Positions 11,061 to 39,400 of a DNA stretch of 44,935 nucleotides are shown piece by piece. The DNA comes from Bryobacteraceae bacterium (GTDB lineage Bacteria; Acidobacteriota; Terriglobia; Bryobacterales; Bryobacteraceae): positions 1-44,935 of the forward strand of contig JASIAM010000263.1 of assembly GCA_030041985.1 (NCBI GenBank), in the 5' to 3' direction. A program made the translations under genes and the position numbers. The first letter of the stretch is position 1; every line of letters starts with the position of its first letter. The notes beneath the pieces were generated by a model that saw only the letters and a program-made list of their open reading frames with translations, did not search any database and was not told where the DNA came from.

Positions 11061-12434
11061 TTACGTCGTCCGATATGCTTCCCGTGCCACTTCGGAATAT
11101 GGCACTGCTGCAACCTTCGCGCGCATCTCTACAGGAACGTGCGGTTCCACGGTCAGTTTCGACCCCGTGCCCGGCTCCTCGCCCCAGACAAAGGTGACGT
11201 CATTGCCCGGCTGGGCGTGTTCCTTGTTCAGAATCGCCAGCGTCAACATCTTGCCTTCATTGGAGCTGTAGCCGATCCAGGTGGAAATGCCGATGGTCTT
11301 GCCGTTCTTCATGACTCTGTCGTAGGGCCAGGTGGAATACACCGCCGAAGGGAAATCAATGTACTTGGCGCGGTCCCCGTTTTGGAACATCGTTCGCATC
11401 GCTTTCAGTACATCCTCTTCATTGAGCACCAAAGTGACTTTGGTCCGCTTCACGTCCTGCGACATTTTCTCGAGTGCTTCCCTTCCCACAAAGTCATGAT
11501 CGAACTTGATGCTCGTTGCATAGCCGAGGTCGTAAGGACTCAAGTAATAGTCTTCGATATTCTCCGAATAAAAACTGCCGCCGAGCGAACATACGGCTTC
11601 GTAACTGTTGGCTGGCAGCCACTCCCGGTATTTTTTCATTTTAGGGCTGGTGTACACGGCGGGCAGAGGCGAAGGGATCCAGCCCGACTCCAGCGTATTC
11701 GAAGAATACGCTCGCGCACCCGACAATCGCAGGCCGAACTCCTTGCCGGCAGCGACGATCGCGTCCTTCACCGCATCTCCATCTGCCCAGGGGCCGAAAA
11801 GCTCAAAGCCGGGCTGACCGACCATGCCATGACGCAACGCGCTAACCGATTTCCCCGCGATCGTGAAAGTCGCCATGTGGAAGAATTTGACTGGCGGCAC
11901 CGGACCGCCCAACACCTTCTCCATCACCTGCATGGCATTCGGGCCCTGCACCTGGTAGCGGTAAGCCTTCCGCACGTAGGGACCCGTCGGGCCGGCCGAT
12001 CTCTCATCGCGCGTCAGCTTAACGTTGTAGCCGCCGGTTTCGGCATGATACTGCACCCAATTGTGTACCGAGGGACGGCCCACCAGATTGAACAGATTCT
12101 CGCCCAGGCAGAACAGAATGACGTCTCCAATCACATACCCTTCCGGATTACAGGGGGCGTACTGTTTGGCCTTGTTGGGACCGAAATTTTTGAACGAGTT
12201 GGTACCCAGATAGGAAAGCAGCTTGAGCGCGTCCGGCCCTTCCACGTACATGTCCGTCATGTGATAGGACTGATTAAACAGAATGCAGGTCTTCTGCCAG
12301 GCGTGCTGCTCATCCCGCCAGTTCGTGTATTCGCTCTGCACCACGGGGTAGACGTACGGGCCGATTGCCGAATTGCGCAATAGCTTTACGGGGGTGGCTT
12401 TTTGTAAGAGCGATTCCAAGCTCTGTTGACTCAT
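11061..12434 (-). CDS. GcvT-fold protein, LigM/DesA-like O-demethylase candidate
   Basis: The 457-residue protein belongs to the aminomethyltransferase (GcvT) fold. It resembles most closely, from memory, the tetrahydrofolate-dependent aryl O-demethylases LigM (vanillate/3-O-methylgallate) and DesA (syringate) of sphingomonads: similar length, the N-terminal YTNWRDEQHAWQKTCILFNQSYHM segment, DALKLLSYLGTNSFKNF, and LRHGMVGQPGFELFGPW. In that family the methyl group of a methoxy-aromatic is passed to THF. No other lignin-monomer gene is near (no ring dioxygenase, methylene-THF reductase or formyl-THF ligase), so the aromatic substrate is inferred only; dimethylsulfoniopropionate demethylase or a glycine-cleavage paralogue are alternatives. 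It is transcribed alone, convergent with the transglycosylase gene. Confidence 0.75.
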   Translation of the reverse strand: MSQQSLESLLQKATPVKLLRNSAIGPYVYPVVQSEYTNWRDEQHAWQKTCILFNQSYHMTDMYVEGPDALKLLSYLGTNSFKNFGPNKAKQYAPCNPEGYVIGDVILFCLGENLFNLVGRPSVHNWVQYHAETGGYNVKLTRDERSAGPTGPYVRKAYRYQVQGPNAMQVMEKVLGGPVPPVKFFHMATFTIAGKSVSALRHGMVGQPGFELFGPWADGDAVKDAIVAAGKEFGLRLSGARAYSSNTLESGWIPSPLPAVYTSPKMKKYREWLPANSYEAVCSLGGSFYSENIEDYYLSPYDLGYATSIKFDHDFVGREALEKMSQDVKRTKVTLVLNEEDVLKAMRTMFQNGDRAKYIDFPSAVYSTWPYDRVMKNGKTIGISTWIGYSSNEGKMLTLAILNKEHAQPGNDVTFVWGEEPGTGSKLTVEPHVPVEMRAKVAAVPYSEVAREAYRTT

Positions 12435-16048: not shown

Positions 16049-17401
16049 TTACACCTCCGAGAGAAGCCCGGTGCTATCGCCAACGCTGTCCTGGTGCACA
16101 CCAGCCTTATCCAGAATGGTGAGCAGCAGGTTCGACATGGGGGTGTTTTCCGGGTATTTGAGATGGCGGCCGCCTTTCATTTTTCCAGCCGCGCCGCCAG
16201 CGACAAATACGGGCAGGGGTGAGTGATTGTGGATGTTGCTGTTGCTCATGCCGCTGCCGTAGAGGACCAGAGTATGGTCGAGCAGGTTGCCATCGCCATC
16301 GCGCGTGGAGCGGAGTTTTTCGAGGAAATACGCCACCAGGCTCACATGATAGGTATTGATTCTGGTGAGATTTTCGAGGCGAGCCGGATTGTTTTGATGA
16401 TGAGAGGCCGGATGGAAGCCTTCCGAGATGTTGAGCATGGGGAAGGTGCGGTAGCTGACCTCGCGCGCCATCATGAAGGTGGAAATGCGCGTGATATCGG
16501 CCTGAAAGGCGACAGTCATGAGGTCGAACATGAGTTTGGTATGCGCCTGATGATCGTCAGGGATACCGGAGGGAGTGGCGGGGACGGCGATATTGGAATT
16601 GCTGTTCTGCTTTTCGGTGAGCTGAATGCGCCGCTCGATTTCGCGAACGGTATCGAGGTACTCGGCCACGCGGTTGCGGTCGTTGGCGCCGAGGCCGCGC
16701 TCGAGGTGGCGGATATCGCTGGTGACGGTATCGAGGATGCTGCGCTCCTGTTCGATCCGTTCCAGGCGCTCGGAGGCGGTGGCCCCATCGCCAAATAAGC
16801 GGTCGAAAACCACGCGCGGATTGATCTCCATGGGGAGCGGCGTGGTGGGGGTGCGCCACGAGATCGTATTCATGTAGGAGCAACTGAAACCTACGTCGCA
16901 GGACCCGACAAGACCGCTAAAATCCTCGGTAGCGAGTTCTAGTGAGGGCAAGGGAGTGTCCTGCCCGATTTTCTCCACAGCCATCTGATCGATGGTGGTG
17001 CCGGCCCGGATATCGGCTCCATCGGTGCGTTTCGGATGAACGCCGTTGAGATAGACGGCGGGAGAGCGCGTGTGATCGCCGCCATTATCGCCCGGTCCGG
17101 CGGGCGCAGCCATGCGGTGCGCCAGGTTGCTGACGACCACGAGCTGATTTTTATAGGGTTCGAGAGGCGCGAGGGTTCGGGAGAGATCGAAATCGGCGCC
17201 ATCGCCGATAGGTGTCCAGTTGTTGATGACCGCGCCATGGGGAATGAAACACAAACCGAGGCGGATTTGCGGCTGGGCGGCGGTGCGCGCCAGCGGGGTT
17301 TGCGCGGGAAGCATCGAATCCAGCAGGGGAAGCGCCAGGGTGACACCCATACCACGAAGAAACGTGCGGCGGGGAAGATGTTTTTTGGTAATCAGCCTCA
17401 T
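16049..17401 (-). CDS. DUF1552 protein with Tat-type signal
   Basis: The 450-residue protein starts with a twin-arginine signal, PRRTFLRGMGVTLALPLL, so it should cross the membrane folded. The body matches the DUF1552 family: GLCFIPHGAVINNWTP, then NGGDHTRSPAVYLNG, a central GFSCSYMNTISWRTPTTP with ENPRVVFDRLFG-like INPRVVFDRLFG, and near the end LDHTLVLYGSGMSNSNIHNHS followed by PVFVAGGAAG. From family knowledge the fold appears related to the alkaline phosphatase/DUF1501 group, but no activity is established. It is always met next to DUF1592-type cytochromes in planctomycetes and acidobacteria, as here. It ends 23 bases before the ankyrin gene. Confidence 0.9.
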   Translation of the reverse strand: MRLITKKHLPRRTFLRGMGVTLALPLLDSMLPAQTPLARTAAQPQIRLGLCFIPHGAVINNWTPIGDGADFDLSRTLAPLEPYKNQLVVVSNLAHRMAAPAGPGDNGGDHTRSPAVYLNGVHPKRTDGADIRAGTTIDQMAVEKIGQDTPLPSLELATEDFSGLVGSCDVGFSCSYMNTISWRTPTTPLPMEINPRVVFDRLFGDGATASERLERIEQERSILDTVTSDIRHLERGLGANDRNRVAEYLDTVREIERRIQLTEKQNSNSNIAVPATPSGIPDDHQAHTKLMFDLMTVAFQADITRISTFMMAREVSYRTFPMLNISEGFHPASHHQNNPARLENLTRINTYHVSLVAYFLEKLRSTRDGDGNLLDHTLVLYGSGMSNSNIHNHSPLPVFVAGGAAGKMKGGRHLKYPENTPMSNLLLTILDKAGVHQDSVGDSTGLLSEV

Positions 17402-17414
17402 ATCTTTGACCTCC

Positions 17415-19835
17415 TCAATTGGGGTGCGAATCGGCCAGCGCAGCCGTTTCGGCCGGAGGGTCCTTCCGGATTTTCATCTCGAAAGGAGGACTCGTGATCA
17501 CGCCGAGCACAAGCGACGAGAAGCGGTAATCATGCGCGGCGGCATCATGCACAATCTTGCGCACGGCGGGCATGTCGTAATACTCGAGACCGCGGCCAAG
17601 CGCGTAGGTGAGCAACTTTTCGGTCATGACGCCCACGAATACATTGGGGCGAGCGGCCAGCATCTGGCGGAGAGCCACGGGGCCATCGACGTGAACGCCA
17701 TTGAACAGGGTGCCCGAGGGATCGATGCGGCTGCCGTCATCCGTGGTGCGCCAGTGGCCGACGGCATCAAAATTCTCCAGCGCGAAACCGATGGGGTCCA
17801 TGACTTTATGGCAGCCCGCGCAGACCGCGTTGGCGCGATGGGCTTCCATGCGCTCGCGCAAGGAGAGCGGCTTGCCATTGCCGCTATTTTCTTTGAGCTC
17901 CGGCACGTTGGGCGGGGGAGGAGTGGGCGGCGTACCGAGTAGGTTGGTGAGAATCCACTTACCGCGCTGCACAGGGGAGGTGCGCGCGGCGTAGGAGGTG
18001 ACCGTCAGGATGCTCGCTTGGCCCAGGAGGCCGCGGCGATTCTCATCGGTAATGTGGACGCGGCGGAACTGGCTGCCGTAGACACCGGGGATGCCGTAGT
18101 GGCGCGCCAGGCGCTCGTTAACGAAGGTGTAATCCGCATTCAGCAGGTCGAGCACGTTGCGATCTTCGTTCACGATGCTGCCGAAGAACAGCTCGGTTTC
18201 CCGCTTCATGGACTGGCGGAGATTGTCGTCGAAATCGGGGAAGGTATCGAGATTGGGAGCGGCGCTCTTCAGATTGCGCAGGAACAGCCACTGTTCGGCG
18301 AAGTTGGTAATGAGTGCTTCGGAGCGCGGGTCGGCGAGCATGCGGCGGACCTGCTGCTCGAGGACGCCGGGCTCGTGCAACTTATTTTGAGCGGCGAGGC
18401 TGACGAGCTGCTCATCCGGAATGCTGCTCCACAAGAAAAAGGAGAGGCGGGAAGCAAGCGCGAGGTCGCTCAGGCGGTAGGCAGTATTGGGAGCCACATT
18501 GGCCGGATCGGGCTCGAAGCGGAAGATAAATTCCGGGCTGGCGAGAATGTACTGAAGGGCGGATTCGATGCCCGCTTCAAAACTGCCATTGGCGTTGCGG
18601 CGGCGCTGATAGAAGCTGAGCAGAGTTTCGAGATCATTATCGGAAGCCGGCCGGCGATAGGCGTGGTTGGCCAAAGCCGAGAGGATCTTGCGGGCGCAGG
18701 GCAATTCTTCCTGGGAATTGGCCGGGCGGCAAACGAAGATGCGTTCGCGGGAAGCGGTATCGCCCGACCCGGTTTCGCGGTACGGCCCTTCAATGGTGAT
18801 GCGGTCGACGGAAGGATCGCCCGTGATATCGAGGCCATCCACGGTGGTGCGGAGGAACGGCTTGATGAGATCGTCGCGGGAGGCGTGGCTGCGCAGCAAG
18901 GTGGTGGCGGCGACATTGTGTTCGCCGGCTTTGACGGGCACCTGGACGGTGAGGCGCTGATCGAGATCGGCTCCGAAAGTTCCGGGGTTTTGCGCCATCT
19001 TGACGAAATCATCACGGCCGCCCACTTCGACCAGGCCAAGGCGCACGCCATCCAAACTGATTTCGATTTGGTGGGCATCTTCCATGCCGCGCAGCAGATC
19101 GAAGGTATTGCGCCAGAGCCGGACCTTAATCGTATACTCGCCATCGAGCGGGAAGTTGTGGCGGACGAGCATGCCGCCGCGTGTTCCGAGCGGCAGCCCT
19201 TCGATGTGCTGGTCCTGCGACAGATCGGGCCGGGCGCGATAGGTGGTTGCGGCGGCGACGATGCGGCTATCGCCGACTGCGAGGCGGCTGATATTCCAGG
19301 AGGCGGAGAGGTAGCGCTCCATTAGAGAAGGCGAGACTTTGAGGACGTCGGCGATGTTATCGAAACCGCTGCTTTCGTCATCGGGAGGCAACAGGGAAGC
19401 GGCGTCGATATCGACCGCGAGCAAATCGTGGACGGCGTTTTGGTACTCGGCGCGATTCAGGCGATGCACGCTGGCCCTGCCCGGATTGGGAGCGGCGGCG
19501 TAGGCCCGATCGAGGGAGTCTTCGAGGAAACTGGCGAGACTATCGAGCGAGGTGGCATCGGGCCGCGGCATACCCTGAGGCGGCATGGCGCCGACGCGCA
19601 GTTTGCGAATTACCTTCTCCCAGGTTTCGGCCGACTTGGGAATGTCGATAAGGTTCGCGGCTTGGAGAGAGAGGCCGCCGGTGCGCAGTTTGTCGTTGTG
19701 ACAAGTGACACAGTATCTATCGAGGAGAGCTTTTTGTATCTGGGGTCCCGTTTGGGCTTTGGGAGTTTGGGCGCATGCCGCAACCATTGCCGTGGCTGCT
19801 ACCCAACGCGAAAGTGTGTATCGAAAGAAGCGCAT
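17415..19835 (-). CDS. Planctomycete-type cytochrome with DUF1587/1592/1588/1585 domains
   Basis: The 806-residue secreted protein has a signal peptide (to about residue 28) and a c-type heme site in DRYCVTCHNDKLRTGG (about residues 40-50). The domain order that can be recognised is DUF1587 (HRLNRAEYQNAVHDLLAVD), a sugar-binding-like module with WRNTFDLLRGMEDAH, DUF1595 (ALANHAYRRPASDNDL), DUF1592 (YRLSDLALASRLSFFLWSSIPD), DUF1588 (RRGLLGQASILTVTSYAARTSPV) and DUF1585 near the end (LGRGLEYYDMPAVRKIV). A second CXXCH (CAGCHKVMDPIGFALENFD) lies in the 1588 region. The family is abundant in planctomycetes and acidobacteria and has no known reaction. It is the first gene of the three-gene operon with DUF1552 and the ankyrin protein. 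Confidence 0.92.
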   Translation of the reverse strand: MRFFRYTLSRWVAATAMVAACAQTPKAQTGPQIQKALLDRYCVTCHNDKLRTGGLSLQAANLIDIPKSAETWEKVIRKLRVGAMPPQGMPRPDATSLDSLASFLEDSLDRAYAAAPNPGRASVHRLNRAEYQNAVHDLLAVDIDAASLLPPDDESSGFDNIADVLKVSPSLMERYLSASWNISRLAVGDSRIVAAATTYRARPDLSQDQHIEGLPLGTRGGMLVRHNFPLDGEYTIKVRLWRNTFDLLRGMEDAHQIEISLDGVRLGLVEVGGRDDFVKMAQNPGTFGADLDQRLTVQVPVKAGEHNVAATTLLRSHASRDDLIKPFLRTTVDGLDITGDPSVDRITIEGPYRETGSGDTASRERIFVCRPANSQEELPCARKILSALANHAYRRPASDNDLETLLSFYQRRRNANGSFEAGIESALQYILASPEFIFRFEPDPANVAPNTAYRLSDLALASRLSFFLWSSIPDEQLVSLAAQNKLHEPGVLEQQVRRMLADPRSEALITNFAEQWLFLRNLKSAAPNLDTFPDFDDNLRQSMKRETELFFGSIVNEDRNVLDLLNADYTFVNERLARHYGIPGVYGSQFRRVHITDENRRGLLGQASILTVTSYAARTSPVQRGKWILTNLLGTPPTPPPPNVPELKENSGNGKPLSLRERMEAHRANAVCAGCHKVMDPIGFALENFDAVGHWRTTDDGSRIDPSGTLFNGVHVDGPVALRQMLAARPNVFVGVMTEKLLTYALGRGLEYYDMPAVRKIVHDAAAHDYRFSSLVLGVITSPPFEMKIRKDPPAETAALADSHPN

Positions 19836-22958: not shown

Positions 22959-24215
22959 TCAGGCCGTCTGGACGGCTTGGCCGGCGGAGACTCGATGCGG
23001 CAGCGTGGCCTCTACGACCGCAAGGAATTCGGTTTCCGTCAGTAATCGCTTGTTAGCGAGCGAGAACTCCTTCACCGCGGCAACCACCTGCATGGCTTCC
23101 TCGTCGGTAAAGGTTACGTTGATGCTTTTGAGCGCCGCTTTGATGGAATCGATGCCGCTCCCTTTGCCCAATACCACCTTCGCCGCCGGTTGACCGACCA
23201 CGTCCCAGTGATACGGGAACAGTTCAGTCGGTTGCTGGGCGCCACAGTTCTGAAACCAACTGGCGATGATGCCGGATTCTATCTGATAAAGCGCTTCACC
23301 AACCACGGGGCGGTTGCTGGGAACGGCATGGCCGGACAACTCCTGCACAAGGCGCGCCAGCCCGTAGAGCTTGTCATACTTCAAACCAATATCGACGCCG
23401 TACATAGTCAGCAGTGCCATAGCGGTCTCTTCCATGGGCGTGTTGCCGGCTCGCTCGCCCAATCCGAGCACTGTCGAATGGATTACTTCCACTCCTTCAG
23501 CCACGGCCATGATGGTGTTGGCTACTCCCATGCCGAAATCCATGTGAAAGTGAGCTTCCAGGCGCTTATCGACGCGCGCTCTCACCTGGCGAACCAGATA
23601 TTGCATGGCATGCGGTGAGACTACACCGAACGTGTCCACCAATGCCAGCGCATCCATGTGACCTTCATTGGCGACGCGCAAGATCAGGTCAAGTACCCAG
23701 GTCATGTCCGCGCGAGTGAAGTCGATAGGGAAGAACACGACTTCCAACCCTTGTTCGTGGGCATAGGCCGTGGATTCAATCGAAAGCTGGATGGCGCGCT
23801 CGAGCGGCCATTGATAGGCGTACCGAATGATGTGCTCGCTCGACGGCACTTCCATCACGATTCCGGAAACGCCGCAATCGACGGCACGCTTCACGTCATC
23901 CACCATACACCGCGAAAACGCGAAGACCTGCGGCCCAAGATTGCGCTTTACAATCTCTTTAATGGCAGCAGCATCGCTGGGCGAGACGACGGGCATGCCG
24001 GCTTCGATCCGGTGCACACCGGCTTCGGCGAGGCCCTCGGCGATGCGGATCTTGTCGTCTTTGGTGAAGATGACACCGGTTTGCTGCTCACCGTCGCGCA
24101 GGGTAATATCGTGGATTTTGATGGCCTTGGGAAAATGGAATTCGGCGCGCACAGCGTCATTGAAGTTCCAGGGACTGACAAACCATTTGTCATTCTTCCA
24201 GGGTTGTTGAGGCAT
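22959..24215 (-). CDS. HMGL-like / isopropylmalate-homocitrate synthase-like aldolase
   Basis: The 418-residue protein has the HMGL-like TIM barrel of Claisen condensing enzymes and lyases. IHDITLRDGEQQTGVIF (from about residue 33) holds the metal aspartate, the catalytic arginine and the glutamine of the LRDGEQ motif. IEAGMPVVSPSD and the glycine-rich VLGLGERAGNTPMEE agree with LeuA/NifV/HMG-CoA lyases, and a C-terminal KSINVTFTDEEAM segment is like the LeuA linker. The second metal motif reads HFHMDFGMG, with Met where most relatives have Asn (HxHND), which may change substrate handling. It is the last gene of a four-gene set with YbhB-like, M24 and PEP-utilizing genes. Substrates unknown; a 2-oxoacid plus acyl-CoA condensation or a retro-aldol step are both possible. 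Confidence 0.78.
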   Translation of the reverse strand: MPQQPWKNDKWFVSPWNFNDAVRAEFHFPKAIKIHDITLRDGEQQTGVIFTKDDKIRIAEGLAEAGVHRIEAGMPVVSPSDAAAIKEIVKRNLGPQVFAFSRCMVDDVKRAVDCGVSGIVMEVPSSEHIIRYAYQWPLERAIQLSIESTAYAHEQGLEVVFFPIDFTRADMTWVLDLILRVANEGHMDALALVDTFGVVSPHAMQYLVRQVRARVDKRLEAHFHMDFGMGVANTIMAVAEGVEVIHSTVLGLGERAGNTPMEETAMALLTMYGVDIGLKYDKLYGLARLVQELSGHAVPSNRPVVGEALYQIESGIIASWFQNCGAQQPTELFPYHWDVVGQPAAKVVLGKGSGIDSIKAALKSINVTFTDEEAMQVVAAVKEFSLANKRLLTETEFLAVVEATLPHRVSAGQAVQTA

Positions 24216-24231
24216 CGTGGACTCCTTTGGA

Positions 24232-25515
24232 CTAAGCCAACCAGCGTACCACGCCCGCTACGCCATCGACCGCTACGGTGGCTCGATCCGGGATACGTTG
24301 TGTGGCATCGAATACTCCCAACACCATGGGGATTCCGCGCTCGCGTGCGAGCGAGGCCAGGTGCGATGTGCTGCCGCCACGCTCGGCGACCACACCGGCG
24401 ACATAAGTGAGCAGATGACTCAGCGCCGGACCCGCCACTTTAGTGACCAGAATATCTCCCGGTGCGACGCGCGCAAGCTCGCATTCGCAGTGGATCACGC
24501 AGGCGCGCCCGGTGCTCCATCCGACACCTGCGGGGTGGCCGCTCAGGCGCGGACGCCCCTGCCACATCGCATCCGGCGCGGCTGCAGGCTCCATGCGTAA
24601 TGGGCGGGCCTGCAGCAACTGGAAACCACTGGAGTCAAGCGCCCATTCGATTTCGACTGGCATTCCCATCAGGTGTTCCACTCGCAGCAGCATTTGGCCG
24701 AGTTCCACCGCTTGCGCTTCGCTGAGGCAGGGTTGGGCGGCGAGAGCGCTCGGGACGGCTTGCGTAACCGGTTCCTGGCGGTGGATGCAGCCCACCTGGT
24801 GATCCTTGCGGCCGGTGGTGATGTTCGTGAGGTTGCCGTCGCGAGTCAGTTCGTAGCGATCGGGAGTGACTTCTCCCTGCGCGATAGAGGAACCGAGTCC
24901 CCAGGTGGCGCTCAGAATCATGCGGTCCGCACTATCCACTCCCGCGACTCTGCTCAATCCCCCGCCCGCGCATAGCGCGGACACGAGTGGCTGCACCAGC
25001 ACGGCCATTGCGGTATCGGCCGGATCGATCGCATGCGACGCCATGTAACGCAACGCGCGCGTGGTCCAAAGGGCGCCCCAACAGGAACGTACGCCAGTAA
25101 TAAAGTCGGCTTCGCTTTCGACGCCAAGAAAGCTCTCAAACTGACCAGCGAAGTTAGCGCCCAATTGGTCTTCCACCAGCGCGGAGGAGCGCACCACCGT
25201 GGGCGTGCCCGTATTGGCCTGGCGCCAGGCTGTTAATAAAGGGTCAAGCACTACTGGAACGATGGGCTGATCGAGCAGCCCCAGTTTCATAGAGAGGGCG
25301 TGGCGGCGGGCTTCGGCGCTGCTGGTTGCAGAGAAGACGCTACGCGCTTCGGCTTCGAGGCCGAGCGCGCGAACTTGCATCCGATACGCTTCGGCATCGA
25401 GACAGAAGCCATCCGGAATGGAGAGACCGGAGTGACCGAGGCGCGCCAGGTTGGCTGCCTTGGGACCGAAGCGCGAGGCGTCGGCGGCTTCAGGGACAGT
25501 AAGAGAAGTGATCAA
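24232..25515 (-). CDS. Two-domain PEP-utilizing protein (ATP-grasp plus phosphohistidine domain)
   Basis: The 427-residue protein has the N-terminal nucleotide-binding part of PEP synthase/pyruvate phosphate dikinase (FGPKAANLARLGHSGLSIPDGF, then VVRSSALVEDQLGANFAGQFES) and a C-terminal mobile swivelling domain. The swivelling domain contains the phosphohistidine motif GGSTSHLASLARERGIPMV near residue 380. The PEP/pyruvate-binding TIM barrel of the full-length enzymes is absent and so is the large substrate domain of rifampicin phosphotransferase (Rph). Either the product phosphorylates a compound itself from ATP through the histidine, or it needs a separate partner. Spacing of 8 bases to the M24 gene and 16 bases to the aldolase gene implies one operon. 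Confidence 0.82.
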   Translation of the reverse strand: MITSLTVPEAADASRFGPKAANLARLGHSGLSIPDGFCLDAEAYRMQVRALGLEAEARSVFSATSSAEARRHALSMKLGLLDQPIVPVVLDPLLTAWRQANTGTPTVVRSSALVEDQLGANFAGQFESFLGVESEADFITGVRSCWGALWTTRALRYMASHAIDPADTAMAVLVQPLVSALCAGGGLSRVAGVDSADRMILSATWGLGSSIAQGEVTPDRYELTRDGNLTNITTGRKDHQVGCIHRQEPVTQAVPSALAAQPCLSEAQAVELGQMLLRVEHLMGMPVEIEWALDSSGFQLLQARPLRMEPAAAPDAMWQGRPRLSGHPAGVGWSTGRACVIHCECELARVAPGDILVTKVAGPALSHLLTYVAGVVAERGGSTSHLASLARERGIPMVLGVFDATQRIPDRATVAVDGVAGVVRWLA

Positions 25516-25523
25516 GTGTTCTG

Positions 25524-26801
25524 CTATGTTCCCACTCTTTTGCCGTAATCCGAGTAACCCGGCATGGGGTCCACCACGGTGATTTGCTCTACCGGGAAGT
25601 TGGAGACGATCTCTACTCCGTCCTTATGAACGATGAGCATCTCTTCGATGCGCACGCCCCACTGGTATGGTTTGCCGTGCTGGGTTTCGAGTGCGAACAC
25701 CATGCCTTCTTTGATTTCGATGGGATGATCGAGCGACCAGATACGTGAGATAACCGGCTGGTCATATTGCGCAAGGCCCAAGCCGTGCCCCCATAGGTTA
25801 GCGGCCGCACGATCTTCCTCTTCGTAGCCCCACGCTTCTTTGGCGGAAGGCCATTGCGAAGCGATGTCACGAGTAGTGGCGCCCACCTTCACTGCTTTGA
25901 TCGAGTCATATAGCCACTTGAGCGCGGTAGCGTAGTAGTCTTTCTGCTCCTGGGTTGGTTCCTTACCGACAATGTAGGTGCGATAGTAACAAGACTTATA
26001 GCCATTCCAGGTGAGCGCCGCCAGGTCCATAAATACGATGTCCCCGGGCTTGATAATGCGGTCGGAAAAGTTACGCCAATTCGGCCAGGTATTCAATCCG
26101 GAGGAGACGATGACATCCTCGACATCCTCCATGCCGGGAATACTGTAGAGGAACTGCATAATGTGCGCGGTGAGCTGGTTTTCGGTGAGACCCGGCTTGA
26201 GAAATTTCATGAACTCCCAATGCGCCGCGTCGCCAATCGCGCCCACCATGCGCATGCATTCGTGCTCATCGGCATTCTTGACGGCGCGCGCTTCCATCAT
26301 GGGCGTCATGCCGTCAGTCCAATCGATTTTGGCGTCCTGGAAGATGCGGATCATATTGATGTCCACAAAATCCACGCCCAATTTCATGCCGTCCACGCCG
26401 CGCTTCTTCATTTCCTGCTGAATCGCGTTGGTGAACTTAGTGACTTGCATGGTGGAGGCTGGTCCGGCCGCGCCTTTAATCCAGGCATACGACCAGCGGA
26501 TGTTGTCCTGAGGGATCCAGGGCGAATGCTTGGCAATGTGCATGCCGATATCGCCTTGTTCGAACAGAACCGGAGGATCATCGCCGCAGAGTAAGGCATA
26601 GCGGAGGCCTGGCTTCAAGCGGTTCCAGCCCGGGGTAAGAGTGCTGGTCACATAGCGGACGTTCTCGTCATACATCAGCAGCAGGGCGCCCAATCCGTGG
26701 GCCTTCATGCGCTCGCGCGCACGCTCCAGCCGGTATTTGCGGAGCCTGTCCCAGTTGATGCGCTCCTGCCAGTCGAGTCCTACAGCGCCGACGTTTGCCA
26801 T
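25524..26801 (-). CDS. M24 (creatinase/prolidase-fold) protein with one altered metal ligand
   Basis: The 425-residue protein has the two-domain M24 layout: a creatinase N-terminal domain (YRLERARERMKAHGLGALLL) and a pita-bread C-terminal domain. Of the five metal ligands, the first aspartate is in VFMDLAAL, the histidine in LWGHGLGL, and the two glutamates in FALETQHG and VRIEEMLIV. The second aspartate, expected in a GYxxDxxRT motif, reads GYKSCYYRT, so Asp is replaced by Cys. Aminopeptidase P, prolidase and DMSP lyase DddP all keep that aspartate, so this may be a non-peptidase or a single-metal enzyme. It lies between YbhB-like and PEP-utilizing genes with gaps of 14 and 8 bases. Substrate unknown. 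Confidence 0.85.
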   Translation of the reverse strand: MANVGAVGLDWQERINWDRLRKYRLERARERMKAHGLGALLLMYDENVRYVTSTLTPGWNRLKPGLRYALLCGDDPPVLFEQGDIGMHIAKHSPWIPQDNIRWSYAWIKGAAGPASTMQVTKFTNAIQQEMKKRGVDGMKLGVDFVDINMIRIFQDAKIDWTDGMTPMMEARAVKNADEHECMRMVGAIGDAAHWEFMKFLKPGLTENQLTAHIMQFLYSIPGMEDVEDVIVSSGLNTWPNWRNFSDRIIKPGDIVFMDLAALTWNGYKSCYYRTYIVGKEPTQEQKDYYATALKWLYDSIKAVKVGATTRDIASQWPSAKEAWGYEEEDRAAANLWGHGLGLAQYDQPVISRIWSLDHPIEIKEGMVFALETQHGKPYQWGVRIEEMLIVHKDGVEIVSNFPVEQITVVDPMPGYSDYGKRVGT

Positions 26802-26815
26802 GGATAGTTGGTTGG

Positions 26816-27418
26816 CTACTTCTGCCCGAACATGCCGATGTACACGCCTTTGGCGATGACTTTACCGTTCATAGCGGAGAGCAGATCAGCGCGGGAAGCG
26901 GTGTCGGGGAGATCCAGTTTCGCACTCAAGGCATAGATTTCGAACGTGTAATGATGATCGCCGTGCCCTGCAGGCGGGCAAGGCCCCATATAACCTGCGC
27001 CGCCCCCCAGGTTCTTGATCTGCTTGGCGCCATCCGGCAGATCGCCCGGCTTGATGCCCTCCGGCAAGCTTGTCGCGCTACCCGGGATGTCGAAGATGGC
27101 CCAGTGGAGCACATCATTGGTTGCGGAGCCGCCCAGTACCGGATCGGGGTCGTGCAGAATCAGCACGAAGCTTTGCGTATTGGCAGGGGCGCCTGTCCAG
27201 CTTATAGCAGGCGAGGGGCTATTCTGGCCTGCGGCACAAGTGTATTTGGCGGGGATCTGGCCGCCATCGGAAAAACCGTTGATGGTGAGGTGAATCATAG
27301 GAGGTAGCGTGAAACCTCCCTTCTTACCGCCCTTCTTGCCGCCTTTTTCCTGAGCGCCCAAAAATGCCACAGAGGCAAGCAGGGCCGCACCAATCACGAA
27401 CGATGTCAGGTACCGCAT
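26816..27418 (-). CDS. Secreted YbhB/YbcL-like (PEBP family) protein
   Basis: The 200-residue protein has a signal peptide (MRYLTSFVIGAALLASVAFL, cleavage near GAQ) followed by a lysine/glycine-rich stretch (EKGGKKGGKKGG). The rest is a phosphatidylethanolamine-binding protein fold of the bacterial YbhB/YbcL type: IPAKYTCAAGQNSPSPAISWTGAP, FVLILHDPDPVLGG, HWAIFDIPGSA and the GYMGPCPPAGHGDHHYTFEIYAL ligand-binding motif. Function in bacteria is unclear; the pocket binds small anions or phospholipid headgroups in homologues. Start chosen at 27418 because AGGAGAGAAC sits just before it and it gives the signal peptide; the longer frame upstream is unsupported. It precedes the M24 gene by 14 bases and is divergent from fumarase. 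Confidence 0.88.
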   Translation of the reverse strand: MRYLTSFVIGAALLASVAFLGAQEKGGKKGGKKGGFTLPPMIHLTINGFSDGGQIPAKYTCAAGQNSPSPAISWTGAPANTQSFVLILHDPDPVLGGSATNDVLHWAIFDIPGSATSLPEGIKPGDLPDGAKQIKNLGGGAGYMGPCPPAGHGDHHYTFEIYALSAKLDLPDTASRADLLSAMNGKVIAKGVYIGMFGQK

Positions 27419-29270: not shown

Positions 29271-30500
29271 ATGCTTAACGTTTATACCCGTCACACCTCG
29301 GATTGCGAGCACGCCGGGGACATGCGCTGGCGCCGTTGCCGCTGCCCTAAGTGGATTCGCGGCGTGCTGCCCAACGGCGAAGCCGTTCGCGAATCCGCGA
29401 AGACCCGCAGTTGGGAACAGGCGGAACGCAAAGCGCGTGAAAAGGAGGCTGCCGCTGATCCGAACGTCGCCGCGACGGCGAAGCCCCAGCGAGTCACGGT
29501 CCGCGAGGCAGTGGAGCTGTTTCTCAAGGACGAGGAGGCTCGTGGGTTAGAGCCAGTTTCCCGCAAGAAATCCCGAACATTGCTTGATCGGCAGTTCCAC
29601 CCCTGGTGTGAGGCTCGAAAGCTCAACCACATCGATCAAGTTACGCCTTTGGATCTGACCGATTTCCGGGCAAGCTGGAACAACGGAGACGTCACGACGC
29701 ACCGCAAGCATGAACGCATGGTCGCGTTTTTCTCGTTCTGCGTTCGCAACGAGATCTTGCGGAAAAATCCGATGGAGGCGCTAAAGAAGCCAAAGACACC
29801 GGACCCCGTCCCCACGGATTACTTCCGCGCTGACGAGTTCAACTCGATCATTGCCGCAACGGAGAAGTATGACTTCGGCAGTGGCAATGACTGCCGCGAC
29901 CGCGGGACGCGCCTGAAAGCGATCACGCTTCTGATGCGGTGGTCCGGCCTATCGATCCTCGATGCCACAAAACTGGAGCGCGACTGGCTGTCCAAGAACG
30001 AACAGCGTGATGATCAGATCTTCCTGTATCGCGCCAAGACCGGGGTGCCCGTTTTTGTGGTGGTCCCGGTGGAAGTCGCCGATATCCTACGATCCCTACC
30101 CAATTCCAATCCGCGGTATTTCTTCTGGTCCGGGAACGGAGATCCGCGCAGTGCAGCGAAGGCCTTCCAGCGCTCTTTCTGGAAGCTTTTTAAACTGGCC
30201 GACATTAAGAAGGCCGACGGAATGCGCAAACGTTCTCATCCACACATGTTCCGCGATACTTTCGCAGTGGAGCTATTGCTGGCCGGCGTACCCTTGGACC
30301 AAGTGTCACTCTTGCTTGGCCACTCCAGCGTCAAAATCACGGAACGCCATTATGCACCCTTCTGCAAGGGGCGACAGCAGCAGTTGGCTGCGTCGGTGAA
30401 AATGGCGTGGGCAAAACCCCAGGACGAGTACAAACCCGGAGAGAGTCAGCCGAAGACCAAGCGAAACCGCCGGGGCAAGACGAAATCTGCTGCCGCTTAA
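29271..30500 (+). CDS. Tyrosine recombinase (phage/island integrase)
   Basis: The protein of 409 residues has an N-terminal cysteine cluster (DCEH, then RRCRCPKW) followed by a SAM-like core-binding domain (about 75-160) and the catalytic domain. Recognisable catalytic residues are the lysine in YRAKTGVPV, HxxR in HPHMFRDTF, histidine in LLGHSSV and tyrosine in ERHYAPF. The first catalytic arginine, normally in a GLRxxE-type turn, is replaced: the segment reads LLMRWSGLSILDATKLERDWL. The start at ATG 29271 removes 21 non-conserved residues read from an upstream TTG. It starts 89 bases after a tRNA-Phe gene and points away from it, as in elements integrated into tRNA 3' ends. The last bases overlap the small HTH gene on the other strand. 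Confidence 0.9.
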   Translation: MLNVYTRHTSDCEHAGDMRWRRCRCPKWIRGVLPNGEAVRESAKTRSWEQAERKAREKEAAADPNVAATAKPQRVTVREAVELFLKDEEARGLEPVSRKKSRTLLDRQFHPWCEARKLNHIDQVTPLDLTDFRASWNNGDVTTHRKHERMVAFFSFCVRNEILRKNPMEALKKPKTPDPVPTDYFRADEFNSIIAATEKYDFGSGNDCRDRGTRLKAITLLMRWSGLSILDATKLERDWLSKNEQRDDQIFLYRAKTGVPVFVVVPVEVADILRSLPNSNPRYFFWSGNGDPRSAAKAFQRSFWKLFKLADIKKADGMRKRSHPHMFRDTFAVELLLAGVPLDQVSLLLGHSSVKITERHYAPFCKGRQQQLAASVKMAWAKPQDEYKPGESQPKTKRNRRGKTKSAAA

Positions 30501-33781: not shown

Positions 33782-33901
33782 ATGCGACTGACCTTCGCCA
33801 CAACCCGATGTATCAGTTCAATGCTGAGCGTGTTGACGGGGGAAGCCTGCCGCCATCGTAAGGGAGGCAGACCGCGTGAAGACTCAATCTCAAGCGATTG
33901 A
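33782..33901 (+). other. Short open frame between the riboswitch and btuF
   Basis: ATG 33782 follows a GGAGG and opens 39 codons (MRLTFATTRCISS..., then an Arg/Lys-rich end), overlapping the start of btuF by 26 bases in another frame. It could be a leader peptide that couples translation to btuF, or the scrap of a lost outer-membrane BtuB gene, which often stands in this place. Nothing in the peptide proves either. Confidence 0.25.
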
Positions 33902-34808
33902 GCCGACCAGCCCGCGCCATCGTGCTCGAACCGGGCGATTTGACCGCCGCGGACTTACCTGGGAGCTACTCGCGCTCTTCTGCGTCTCATCTGTGGCGGC
34001 TCAGCCGCAACCGGCTCGCATCGTGTCGACGTTTCCCAGCATTACCGAAACGGTCTTCGCGTTGGGAGCCGGCGATCGATTGGTTGGCGTTTCGGATTAC
34101 TGCCGGTATCCGGAAGCAGCTCTGGCGTTGCCGAAGGTCGGCGGTTATTTGACCCCAAATCTGGAAAGGATCGCGCTATTGCGTCCCGATCTGGTGTTGA
34201 TTCGCGACACAGCGGCGACGGTCGCCACAGGGCTGAACGCTCTTGGAATCCGTTACGTCCAGATCAAGATTGGTTCGTTGGCGGACGTTTACTCGATGAT
34301 TCGTGACGTAGGCGCTGCGATCGGCGCTTCGGCCAATGCACAGGAGTTGAATGCGAAGATTCGCTCGCGCCTCGATGCGATGCGCACGGAAACAGCGAGC
34401 AAGCCGAGACCTACCGCCCTGATAATCGTCGGACACACACCTGGCTTGCTGACCAACCTGGTCACCGCCGGTCCATTGACTTACCTTAGTGAGTTACTCG
34501 AAATCGCTGGTGGACGCAATACGATGCCCGCGAGCGCTGTCGCCTATCCGCGCATTTCGCTGGAAACGATCGTGCGCTTGAACCCCGACGTCATTCTCGA
34601 TCTTGCGACGATGGGCGAACCGGCCAGCGCAGAAGCCCATGAGGCTCGCTGGCGCGATCCCTGGCTCTCGCTTCGTGAACTAAACGCCGTCCGCAGTGGC
34701 CGCGTGTTCGGATTGCCCTCTGACCCGCTCGCCACACCAGGCCCGCGTGTCGTCGAATCGGTGGAACTCATCCGCGCAAAACTTCGGCAAACTGCAGGTC
34801 CGCAATGA
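33876..34808 (+). CDS. btuF: BtuF-like periplasmic corrinoid-binding protein
   Basis: The 310-residue protein is a class III substrate-binding protein that delivers vitamin B12 or related corrinoids to an ABC importer. An extended N-terminus ends in a hydrophobic signal (LLALFCVSSVAAQ). The mature part has the BtuF/FhuD pattern: RIVSTFPSITETVFALGAGDRLVGVSDYC, PKVGGYLTPNLERIALLRPDLVL and a C-terminal GRVFGLPSDPLATPGPRVVES. The start is GTG with an AGGGAGG site nine bases before it. It is the first intact gene after the cobalamin riboswitch, and its stop overlaps the btuD start (ATGA). Its reading frame is undamaged, unlike the two transporter genes that follow. Confidence 0.88.
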   Translation: MKTQSQAIEPTSPRHRARTGRFDRRGLTWELLALFCVSSVAAQPQPARIVSTFPSITETVFALGAGDRLVGVSDYCRYPEAALALPKVGGYLTPNLERIALLRPDLVLIRDTAATVATGLNALGIRYVQIKIGSLADVYSMIRDVGAAIGASANAQELNAKIRSRLDAMRTETASKPRPTALIIVGHTPGLLTNLVTAGPLTYLSELLEIAGGRNTMPASAVAYPRISLETIVRLNPDVILDLATMGEPASAEAHEARWRDPWLSLRELNAVRSGRVFGLPSDPLATPGPRVVESVELIRAKLRQTAGPQ

Positions 34809-35567: not shown

Positions 35568-36449
35568 CGTCGCGCACCTCATCGCCATACGGCTGGGTCT
35601 GGGGATCGGCGGCCGTATTCCTGCTTTCCGGGGTGCTGCTTCCGTGGGCCGGCAGCGGTCCGATCAGTATGGAGCGCGTCTTCGCGAAGCTCCCACCCGA
35701 TTATCCGATCTTCATCGAGTTGCGCCTCTCTCGCACTTTGCTGGGCCTGCTTACGAGAGGAGCGCTCTCGCTCACCGGAAGCCTGTTTCAAGCGATGCTG
35801 CGCGATTCGCTCGCGACGCCATACACGCGCGGGAGCGGCGGTTATGCTCGTGATCGTTGCAGGCGCTTCGTGGAAAAGGGGCCAGCTTTCCGGCGTTCGT
35901 CTCCTGTTATCAGGAATCGCGCCCAACAGCGTGTGCTTGGCGTTCATTATGCTGATCAATAGTCTCGTGCGCTACCGGCGATCGTTCTCGATCACGCAGT
36001 GGATGCTCGGCAGCGTGGACGCTGTCAATTATCCAGCGCTCTTTGCCTTAGGCGAGCTAGTGGTGGCCGCATCTATCGTAGTCATCAACGAGGCGCGCGG
36101 CTGGAACTTACTCGCCGTCGGAGAGACCTGGGCCACTGCACGCGGCGCGGACTTGCGGCGCCTGATGATAACGGGCTACTGCTGCGGTTCGACGGTTACC
36201 GCCGGCGCCATCGCTCTTACCGGACCCATCGGATTTGTGGGGCTTATCGTGCCCCATTTAGTCCGCTCGCGCGTCAGTGGTAACAATCGCGTCCTCATGC
36301 GGTGTTCGCTGTTCCTCGACGGCGTGTTGCTTCCGGGTTGCGACACGCTGGGGCGGGTCGTGCTCGCTCCTGCGGAACCGCCTGCCGGCGCAGTGATGGC
36401 GATTGTGGGAGGTCCCTATCCCGCGTGGCTCGTGCGGAGCAGATTCTGA
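35564..36449 (+). pseudogene. btuC: btuC-like corrinoid importer permease, broken by an internal deletion
   Basis: The gene starts at ATG 35564 (MTSRTSSPYGWVWGS), continues with LRLSRTLLGLLTRGALSLTGSLFQAMLRDSLATPYT and then leaves the family frame at about 35827. The family resumes in another frame at about 35835 (AAVMLVIVAGAS, then SGVRLLLSGIAPNSVCLAFI, FSITQWMLGSVDAVNYPALF, and LTGPIGFVGLIVPHLVRSR). The joint lacks the segment that normally follows PYTLG, roughly 50 residues including one to two membrane helices, and the lost length is not a multiple of three. The gene stops at 36447-36449, with TGATG overlapping the cobN start. Residual order shows it was a normal BtuC. Confidence 0.85.
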
Positions 36450-39400
36450 TGTCGTCCTATCGCCAAAGAGTGACGCGCGAGGACGGACGCGCGATCAACG
36501 TCGTCCAGCGGCGCGGACACCTTTCCTATTGCCACGGCGCTTGCTGCTGCGGCCGCACCGATCGAGGTTACGCCGCCGTTCCGTCCGAGATTTACAAGGA
36601 GGAGTGGCTGAAGCGCAAGCTGCGCAACACCGTCCACATGACGAAGGGCGGATGCCTCGGCCCATGCCCGCTCGCGAATGTCGCGAGCCTCGAATTCGAC
36701 GGACAGTCTGTTTTTTTTCAATCGGTGTCGCAGCCTTGGCAGGTGCGCCTGATCTTCGACTACATCGAATCTATGATTCGTGCCGATCGCTTCCTGCCTC
36801 CGCCTGCTGAACTCGCCGTTTTCACGTTCGATTTCTACGATTGGAAGGCCCGCCCACATCACTCCGAAGAGCTTGCGCCGCTCGCGCCGGTGGATCCGAA
36901 CCTCCTCGCGTTCCTCACGCATGCCGGCACCGATTTAATGACGCTCGATCGCGCGCGGGCCGATCTTCCGCAAGGGATCAAAGTGCTCGGACTCTCGCTG
37001 CTCTCGATCGCGAGCGACGAACAGATGCTCACAACGTTGAATGGCGAATTCGCCGAAGCCGCAGTCGTGTTATGCCGCGTTCATGGACGCCTCGAGTCGC
37101 TACCCGCGTTCGAATTGCTGCGGCAGCGCTGCCGCGAGCGCGGACAGCGTCTCTTGTTCATCAGTGGAACCGGCGAACTCGATCCGCGGATGGCGCAGGC
37201 AGGTGATGTGCCGCTCGACGTACTCGACTCCGTAACGCGCTATCTCCTCTGCGGCGGAACAGCCAACCTGATCGAGTGTGTGAAGTTTCTCTCCGATCGC
37301 TTACTGCTCACCGGTTACGGCTACAGCGAGCCACAAATCATGCCGGATCACGGCATCTACCTGCGTGATATCGGAGGCGCGGATGCGGAAGACTGGCGCA
37401 AACAGGCGGACGCCCACAAGCCCGTCGCGGCAATTCTCTTCTATCGCGCGCACCTGCTTAGCGGAAATACGGGTTTCGTCGATGCGCTGGCGGAATCGCT
37501 CGCCGCGCAAGACATCGAGCCGCTTTGTATCTTCACATCGAGCCTGAAGGCGCAGCGCGACGGCATACCCGCGGCGTTTCATTACTTCGCGGCGCGCCCC
37601 GCGGTGATCGTCTCGACCCTCTCTTTCGCGCAAGCCGAGGTGAATACGGGTGGCGTCACATCGCCGGGATCGAACGTAAGCACGCTGGAACAGTTGGGCG
37701 TGCCTGTGATTCAAACGATGGCGGCGAGCGTGCCGCGAGCCTCGTGGGAGATTTCCTCGCGCGGATTGAATCCGCTCGAAACCGCCATCAACGTCGCAGT
37801 CCCCGAATTCGACGGTCGCATCATCTCCGTTCCTATCTCTTTCAAGGAGCGGCAGGAAGTACATGACGGCGCACTTTACGTGCCGCACGCGGAACGCGCT
37901 GCTCGGGTGGCCGGAATCGCGGCGCGATTCGTCGCATTGCGGCAAAAGCCGAACGCGGAAAAGCGGATTGCGTTCGTGCTCACGAACTCGTCGACGAAAG
38001 CGGCGCAAGTCGGCAATGCGGTTGGCCTCGATGCCCCCGCGAGTCTGCTGAACCTGCTACGAGCCATGCGGCGGCGCGGATATGAGACCGGAACGCTACC
38101 CGCCGATAGCGATGCGTTGATGCACGAACTGCTTTCGCGCGGCAGTTATGACGAGAATCATCCGCTTAATCCTTCGGTGGCGCACCGGCTATCTGTAAGG
38201 CGATACTGCGAATGGTTCAACTCATTCCCTGAGAACGCGCGCAAACGCTTAATCCGCGTGTGGCAAGAGCCGGGACGCGATGCGAAGGAGCCGTGGCACG
38301 ATGCAGCCGATTTCCTCTTCGCGGCGCTCGAAATGCAGAACGCTCTCATTGCACTGCAGCCGCCGCGCGGCTACGGCGTGAATCCGGACGCGATCTACCA
38401 CACGCCCGATCTGCCCCCGACGCATCACTACACGGCGTTCTATCGCTGGCTGGCCGCGCCGCGCGCGCAGGGCGGATGGGAAGCCGACGCGATCGTACAC
38501 GTCGGCAAGCACGGCACGCTCGAATGGCTGCCAGGCAAGGGCATTGGTCTCTCCGCCGAGTGCTTCCCCGACCTGTTGCTGGGGGACATGCCGCTCATCT
38601 ATCCATTCATCATTAATGATCCGGGCGAAGGCAGCCAGGCCAAACGCCGCACGCACGCCGTCATCGTCGATCACTTGACTCCGCCCATGACGGCTGCGGA
38701 AACGTACGGGCCTCTTGCGGAGTTGAATCAACTGGTCAATGAATACTACTCGCTCGAAAAGCTAGATCCTTCGAAGCTCCCGATTCTGCAGCGGCAGATC
38801 TGGGATCTGATCGAAAAGGCCAATCTGCACGCTGACCTCAATCTCAAGACGATACTCTCGCGCGATCACGGAGACCACAAGCATGAGTGGGATGAACAGG
38901 TTACCGCTGAGGGTGTGCCGGTCACGCTGGCCGAAATGAGCGGCAACGAAGTTGCACATTTGATCGAAGACATCGATGGATACCTGTGCGAATTGGGCCT
39001 CGCGCAAATTCGCGACGGCTTGCATGTGTTGGGTCACATGCCGCCGCTCGCGGACATGCTTCGCTCGCTCACACGCCTGCCGAATGAGGGGGTGCCCGGC
39101 TTGCAGCAATCGCTCGCGGCCCATTTCGGATTCGCGCTGCCCGACTTGCTGGAGCGCCCCGGCGCGCGCCTCGAGCCGCCTGCATCCGTCTATGGTACGC
39201 TCTGCCATTCGCATGCCGACGTGCTTCGCGAACTCGACGCGCTTGCGCTCGCGCTGTTCACTGCCTTCGAAGAACGCGGGTTTCAGGCCTCGGCGATTGA
39301 GGAAGTTCAGTGTCTCGTATTTGGCAAAACCGCCGCAGGTGTTACCCGCGTACTTCATTACGTCAGCGACGCTTTGCTGCCTAACCTCGAACGTGTGGAT

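Follow-up and report, generated by a model that had tools for sequence, protein, structure and literature searches.

Do the four closely spaced genes at positions 22,959 to 27,418 of a 44,935-nucleotide stretch of Bryobacteraceae DNA (contig JASIAM010000263.1, phylum Acidobacteriota; this whole stretch is hereafter the window) act together, or does the cluster hold a smaller core? An earlier note, made from the sequence of the window, had read all four as one short pathway. A survey of relatives suggests a different partition. The M24-fold protein and the truncated dikinase encoded directly downstream of it (the kinase half) form a conserved pair, for which the evidence is strong, while the YbhB-like and HMGL-like genes look like local additions. 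The pair itself is read here, tentatively and with confidence a little short of even, as a dikinase split over two components, or a coupled phosphotransfer pair, that would act in breaking down an imported compound of the carboxylate or polyol type. Recomputed coordinates place the four open reading frames on one strand (minus), separated by 14, 8 and 16 bases as in the note, and the Pfam assignments agree with the families it named:

26816..27418, minus strand: YbhB/PEBP-like protein, 200 amino acids, signal-like N-terminus (Pfam PBP, 4.8e-36)
25524..26801, minus strand: M24-I protein, 425 amino acids (Pfam Peptidase_M24, PF00557, 2e-37, and Creatinase_N, 1.7e-06)
24232..25515, minus strand: dikinase half, 427 amino acids, TTG start (Pfam PPDK_N, 2.9e-56, and PEP-utilizers, 2.1e-18)
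22959..24215, minus strand: HMGL-like protein, 418 amino acids, isopropylmalate/homocitrate-synthase-like (Pfam HMGL-like, 1.7e-63)

Which of the four genes belong together

A six-sequence M24 alignment, used to scan a genome collection of 84,980 species, returned 435 stretches, of which 356 were confirmed and the best 80 examined. The M24 proteins of these best 80 loci, designated M24-I, are 80–95% identical to the window protein. They come mostly from bins of Betaproteobacteria or Burkholderiales, but also from Alpha- and Gammaproteobacteria, Acidobacteriota, SAR324 and Rokubacteria; no title names a cultured strain, and three of the loci (L079, L082 and L089) appear to be the same contigs as window-family genomes. 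Wherever at least 1.5 kilobases (kb) of downstream sequence is available, the kinase half follows M24-I on the same strand (66/66 loci), at a spacing of up to 300 bases in 42 loci and of 1.0–1.3 kb in the other 24, where a gene of a Zn-alcohol-dehydrogenase cluster is called in between. Four of the remaining 14 loci also carry the kinase half despite a shorter flank, and in the other 10 the sequence stops no more than 1.31 kb from the M24 gene; the Rokubacteria bin carries M24-I on a contig that ends before the kinase position can be judged. An even draw of 399 Burkholderiales genomes gave a congruent picture: the kinase half (60–70% identical) and M24-I (83–89%) occur in the identical 10 genomes, with a hypergeometric P of 4e-20 that ignores relatedness, and nine of the 10 pairs lie close together on one contig, the tenth (G800) being split over two different contigs. 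As an aside on provenance, five M24-I loci (L098, L099, L108, L138 and L140) come from metagenome-assembled genome records titled Bordetella parapertussis, which, judging by the isolate names, look like misassigned environmental bins.

The flanking genes behave otherwise. The YbhB-like gene, whose product was thought to be secreted and does have an N-terminal stretch that by eye resembles a signal peptide, reaches the cut-off of NCBIfam subfamily TIGR00481, and has no tblastn match at 1e-4 in any of 109 related loci; it is probably merely a neighbour of the pair. Among the 80 best loci, none has YbhB close to M24-I, and HMGL is close to it at three, all Acidobacteriota by title; outside Acidobacteriota no linked HMGL was found among these loci. 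In 20 other M24-I genomes, an HMGL of 62–69% identity is present but unlinked in six and one of 38% in a seventh, with none at E 1e-60 in the other 13. Near the unlinked copies, L165, L166 and L168 show TctA-cluster and isocitrate/isopropylmalate-dehydrogenase-like genes (by Pfam for L165, by eye for the others), and an Amidohydro_2 gene is found in L165 (Pfam) and L166 (by eye); the surroundings in L167, L169 and L170 differ.

Within 237 genomes of the window family, HMGL has a match at E 1e-100 or better in 26, at 27 loci: identity is 79% or higher at nine of them, spread over 8 genomes, and 49–54% at the other 18. Wide stretches were read around all nine close loci and 13 of the 18 distant ones. 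Eight of the nine close loci hold a D-2-hydroxyacid dehydrogenase gene, which only the window lacks; seven hold an M24 (type I or type II) and five the kinase half. L059 ends inside the dehydrogenase gene, and the stretch read around L060 includes no M24. At L061 and L063, HMGL is accompanied by an M24 of a different subfamily, and at 12 distant loci (L066–L077) it stands beside a gene of one cluster that is a phosphate acetyl/butyryltransferase by Pfam (one representative). These roughly 50% identical relatives read HxHED where the pattern is found, and L076 also has, by eye, an acetate/butyrate-kinase-like gene. With neighbours of its own and unlinked copies elsewhere, HMGL is a module of its own, and looks like a separate condensing-type enzyme added in this lineage outside the core pair.

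A changed metal motif had been claimed for HMGL, and the residue after HxH is indeed Met in place of Asn; yet D41, H222, H224 and N258, which we take to be the metal-ligand positions of the HMGL family (Asp, His, His, Asn), are all present, as in isopropylmalate and homocitrate synthases, whose fold it shares. Loss of metal ligands is thus rejected, and the residue after HxH varies in relatives too: Met in all nine close loci, Gln or Glu in relatives showing the pattern, as against HxHN in the homocitrate and isopropylmalate synthases. HMGL falls below every NCBIfam cut-off among the models listed (25 of 28), the best being TIGR02090 at 312 bits against 485.

A four-gene Acidobacteriota pathway, with YbhB and HMGL working alongside the pair, would account for the common strand, the short gaps and the co-occurrence of HMGL with an M24 in seven of the nine close HMGL loci. 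It is nonetheless very improbable given that YbhB was found in none of the 109 related loci and that HMGL is found with another M24 subfamily, beside an acyltransferase-type gene, or apart from M24-I altogether. As a single unit it was rejected for YbhB and weakened for HMGL. The earlier note had named scattering of the genes in relatives as grounds for abandoning its reading; such scattering is seen for YbhB and in part for HMGL, and not for the M24 and kinase genes. All three enzyme genes are maintained, as indicated by low nonsynonymous divergence from relatives (dN 0.05–0.22) against near-saturated synonymous divergence (dS 1.4–3.3).

Architecture of the kinase half and the M24 metal site

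As predicted from its sequence and structural model, the kinase half comprises only the ATP-grasp and swivel portions of a dikinase, with no substrate domain. An ATP-grasp domain (residues ~1–313) is followed directly by a phosphohistidine swivel domain (~323–427) bearing a GGSTSH motif with His385, after which the 427-residue protein stops; the absence of a TIM barrel noted at the outset is thereby borne out, and no acceptor domain of another kind is present. The ATP-grasp residues and the phospho-accepting histidine motif that define the dikinase superfamily are conserved, with R109, S110, S111, E288, E290, Q302, R304, T383, S384 and H385 each over 97% conserved in 65 sequences. Cysteines are also retained in these 65 kinase halves, in a Cys-Glu-Cys-Glu stretch at residues 343–346 near the start of the swivel domain and at Cys243 and Cys263. 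In the model (predicted local distance difference test, pLDDT, 84.6), 407 residues align to rifampin phosphotransferase (RPH) 5hv3 (Z 33.4, root-mean-square deviation, rmsd, 4.4), the alignment skipping the middle substrate domain of the latter, and its ATP-grasp domain matches HpeI 9goj over 301 residues (Z 26.6, rmsd 5.0).

The kinase half thus shares ATP-grasp and swivel domains and the histidine motif with RPH and phosphoenolpyruvate (PEP) synthase, but belongs to neither family. It lacks the PEP-utilizers_C TIM barrel of PEP synthase (233 bits, cut-off 598), and its two domains are joined without the middle rifampin-binding domain of RPH (207 bits, cut-off 999). No NCBIfam cut-off is reached among the models listed (25 of 27), where the scores with PEP synthase and RPH models exceed those with pyruvate phosphate dikinase (PPDK) models. 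Some match to it occurs in 48 of 199 Acidobacteriota genomes, and none is close apart from that of the window itself. Identity is at most 36% for the rest, which lie in open frames of at least 605 codons, the size of complete enzymes, with six exceptions in frames of 278–597 codons.

The M24 protein departs from its family in a different way. Its PF00557 match and a model (mean pLDDT 79.8) that aligns to M24 structures at Z above 30 assign it to the pita-bread fold, with two nearest solved structures tied: DddP, an M24-fold dimethylsulfoniopropionate lyase (4b28; Z 35.7, rmsd 2.8, 394 residues), and Xaa-Pro dipeptidase (5cde; Z 35.6, rmsd 3.1, 374 residues). Alignment to solved M24 structures gives the ligand set D259-C271-H339-E372-E386, in which Cys271 occupies the position of the second Asp of Xaa-Pro-type metallopeptidases (Asp, Asp, His, Glu, Glu), the other four ligands being retained. 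The altered metal site reported from the sequence is therefore real, and across 81 M24-I proteins the conservation of C271 exceeds 97%. In a sample of 68 M24 sequences, picked by similarity to the window protein, 64 have D-C-H-E-E and four D-D-H-E-E. A degenerate M24 is ruled out, since 258 of the 425 positions are over 97% conserved in the 81 sequences and dN is low. None of the 13 NCBIfam models compared reaches its cut-off. DddP (NF043017) is the best at 92 bits against 600, and is further set apart by the Cys ligand and an identity of 19–22%; the ectoine hydrolase DoeA (TIGR02993) scores 57.8 bits against 613.

In a maximum-likelihood tree, a branch (100/98) separates the 64 Cys-type sequences from the rest, and M24-I forms a separate clade (100/99). 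The M24 proteins of the window, G389 and G399 nest among Betaproteobacteria or Burkholderiales, which make up the remainder of their 10-row clade (100/99). Some long branches meet in this tree, and the placement of the second M24 of L125, of L159 and of L016 is unsure. Because it nests inside Betaproteobacteria, the window M24-I was probably acquired by horizontal transfer. Mobile DNA yielded no close kin: 32 pattern matches in viral contigs include no relative, and all 49 plasmid M24 records are below 60% identity, the eight that were opened being Cys-type but not M24-I.

Candidate roles for the pair

What, then, might the two proteins do together? Their surroundings in relatives are of a catabolic island type. 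Gene neighbourhoods reaching seven genes from M24 were compared at 79 of the 80 loci (L147 was excluded, its M24 not being gene-called). The most frequent neighbours are a D-2-hydroxyacid dehydrogenase (at least 52 loci), a TctC-type binding protein (at least 34), a Gfo/Idh/MocA protein (at least 30) and a Zn-alcohol dehydrogenase (at least 28), followed by Amidohydro_2 (16), a second Gfo/Idh/MocA (15), a CocE-type hydrolase (14), a LysR regulator (11), and 3-hydroxyisobutyrate-dehydrogenase-like and FAA hydrolase genes (10 each), all of these counts being lower bounds because many loci are short, and each name resting on one or two representatives. Liv-type ABC transporter genes are also found. 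In these surroundings the catabolic or modifying role first suggested for the cluster survives for the M24 protein and the kinase half, though not for the four genes as one pathway. An inositol-like or rhamnonate-like substrate, as the neighbouring dehydrogenases and hydrolases might indicate, was not adopted, the NCBIfam scores lying below cut-off.

It is the combination of a kinase half devoid of an acceptor site with a constant M24-I neighbour that leads to the two-component dikinase or coupled phosphotransfer–cleavage reading. In such a scheme, the kinase half would move the beta-phosphate of adenosine triphosphate (ATP) onto His385, releasing adenosine monophosphate and phosphate as PEP synthase and RPH do, and, having no substrate domain of its own, would hand the phosphate to a small molecule that is held, or next handled, by M24. 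The latter would be a non-peptidase of the pita-bread fold, with Cys replacing the second metal-ligand Asp. The pair would then amount to one activation and cleavage step, for which the D-2-hydroxyacid, Gfo/Idh and Zn-alcohol dehydrogenases could supply the redox steps in relatives. We infer the phosphotransfer to a small molecule, the part of M24 as acceptor partner and the class of substrate from this arrangement. The stricter proposal, that M24 is the acceptor subunit of a new two-component dikinase, binding the small molecule phosphorylated by the swivel histidine and perhaps then cleaving it, is rather unlikely; if true, the swivelling dikinases, known with TIM-barrel or RPH-type acceptor domains, would gain a third kind. 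There is precedent for such a division of labor: two-component dikinases are known in aromatic catabolism (PMC12167813). The likeness to the two-component small-molecule dikinases HpeHI, CreHI and PpsAB lies in dikinase domains divided over two proteins, in the catabolism of small organic compounds and in an ATP-grasp domain resembling HpeI.

The two proteins might instead catalyze two separate steps, with M24 as a lyase or C–C/C–N hydrolase acting on an oxidized polyol or organic acid, and the kinase half phosphorylating another intermediate or using an unlinked acceptor. This is a doubtful but serious contender, consistent with an M24 fold nearest to DddP, Xaa-Pro dipeptidases, ectoine hydrolase and creatinase, and further suggested by a sister group, M24-III, whose members are mostly 33–39% identical to the window M24, share its Cys site and stand without this kinase. 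M24-III genes lie beside 2-oxoacid dehydrogenase E1, and mostly also E2, genes in Acidobacteriota, Roseobacters and Haloferax. Among 20 Burkholderiales M24-III loci with flanks of up to 1.5 kb, E1 is present in 14, a hydroxyisobutyrate-dehydrogenase-like gene in five and neither in one, while the three actinobacterial plasmid M24-III loci that were opened showed no 2-oxoacid dehydrogenase neighbour. All 10 M24-I Burkholderiales genomes carry a second M24 of 33–37% identity, in the M24-III range, from among 32 carriers in the 399 genomes (P 2.6e-12, ignoring relatedness), and the window genome likewise carries a second M24, 36% identical; the M24-I and M24-III systems may serve one metabolic network. 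Two separate steps would, on the other hand, leave the kinase half without an acceptor domain and without an equally constant alternative partner, the D-2-hydroxyacid dehydrogenase (two query types) being present in 41 of 53 M24-I loci with 4 kb of downstream sequence.

Several further genes were observed around M24-III. A GcvT-family gene in the window (11061–12434, minus strand; PF01571) has a relative in G286 (L023, 10024–11397) directly downstream of an M24-III gene. On two Paenarthrobacter sp. R1 plasmids (L212 and L213), M24-III lies near RidA, flavin reductase and 3-hydroxyisobutyrate-dehydrogenase-like genes, one of the M24-III genes having near it a flavin reductase annotated SulR (sulfonamide class), which hints at catabolism of nitrogen compounds. 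In G231 (L029, 8886–10165, minus strand), nitrile hydratase alpha and beta genes lie directly upstream of the M24-III gene.

A regulatory role also has a precedent. VadK is described as an ATP-binding and His-domain protein without a pyruvate domain that acts as a kinase and regulates neighbouring enzymes (PMC13400623). The kinase half shares this truncation, lacking any pyruvate/PEP domain, and likewise lies beside metabolic genes whose products could be regulated; it might, as a protein-histidine phosphotransferase, tune its neighbours, M24 first, to the ATP supply. This appears improbable, given a pair that spans several bacterial groups in varied catabolic surroundings, a constant M24 neighbour, and sequence scores higher with PEP synthase and RPH models than with the PPDK models listed, VadK itself having been compared by description.

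Several observations weigh against the two-component or coupled phosphotransfer reading. HpeHI, CreHI and PpsAB have a lone ATP-grasp protein and carry the swivel on the substrate-binding subunit (PMC12167813), whereas the window pair has ATP-grasp and swivel on one protein and an M24 fold as constant neighbour. M24-III shares the Cys site yet mostly pairs with 2-oxoacid dehydrogenase genes, so that the Cys site by itself does not require phosphotransfer. A second M24-I copy in G231, cut by the contig end, is followed by an amidohydrolase gene, with no kinase called in the 7.9 kb of downstream sequence read. The distance matrices of M24 and kinase half correlate only moderately (r 0.41, 64 loci), M24 being the slower-evolving of the two (mean distance 0.15 versus 0.35). 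No M24–kinase fusion was met among the loci read, in which no systematic search for fusions was made. Kinship among genomes inflates the co-occurrence P values, and the M24-I sample consists of the 80 best matches. Finally, the closest match in the window genome to the linked D-2-hydroxyacid dehydrogenase is 42% identical, so that no near relative of it is present. This last point could be taken to mean that the window holds a decaying catabolic remnant, in which a horizontally acquired pair has lost the dehydrogenase that only the window lacks among the nine close HMGL loci; with intact open frames and the low dN given above, such decay is extremely unlikely. The window genome gave no match to the Gfo/Idh partner either, in a search that had no positive control.

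The second G231 copy (L020, 6794–8563, minus strand) is a nearly identical M24-I followed by a secreted-looking Amidohydro_2 protein, and each of the two G231 copies is cut off by a contig edge, at the same residue in both.

The wider window and the meaning of the pair

Elsewhere in the window, a phage-integrase-family recombinase gene (29271–30500, plus strand; PF00589, 7.5e-15) lies 1.9 kb from the YbhB start, beyond a fumarase gene, and is a possible mark of past mobility. A DUF1552 protein and a DUF1592/1588/1585/1587/1595 cytochrome-type protein are encoded in tandem at 16049–19835 (minus strand). On the plus strand, genes for a periplasmic binding protein (33876–34808; PF01497) and a CobN/Mg-chelatase-type protein (36449–40720; PF02514) suggest a cobalamin-related cluster.

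We know of no truncated dikinase in which an M24 fold is the neighbour or partner. In open-licence PubMed Central literature, no publication on the M24–dikinase pair was found. Nothing relevant turned up there on M24 in combination with hydroxyacid dehydrogenase, TctC, PEP-utilizing or inositol dehydrogenase genes, nor on pAO1. What emerges from the locus is, first, a Cys-site M24 subfamily, extending from Haloferax to Roseobacters, whose members are annotated as "Xaa-Pro peptidase" or "M24 metallopeptidase". The second is an uncharacterized protein pair conserved across bins of Proteobacteria, Acidobacteriota and SAR324. As a truncated dikinase with a constant M24-fold neighbour, this pair offers a testable case of how a kinase family gains new acceptors.

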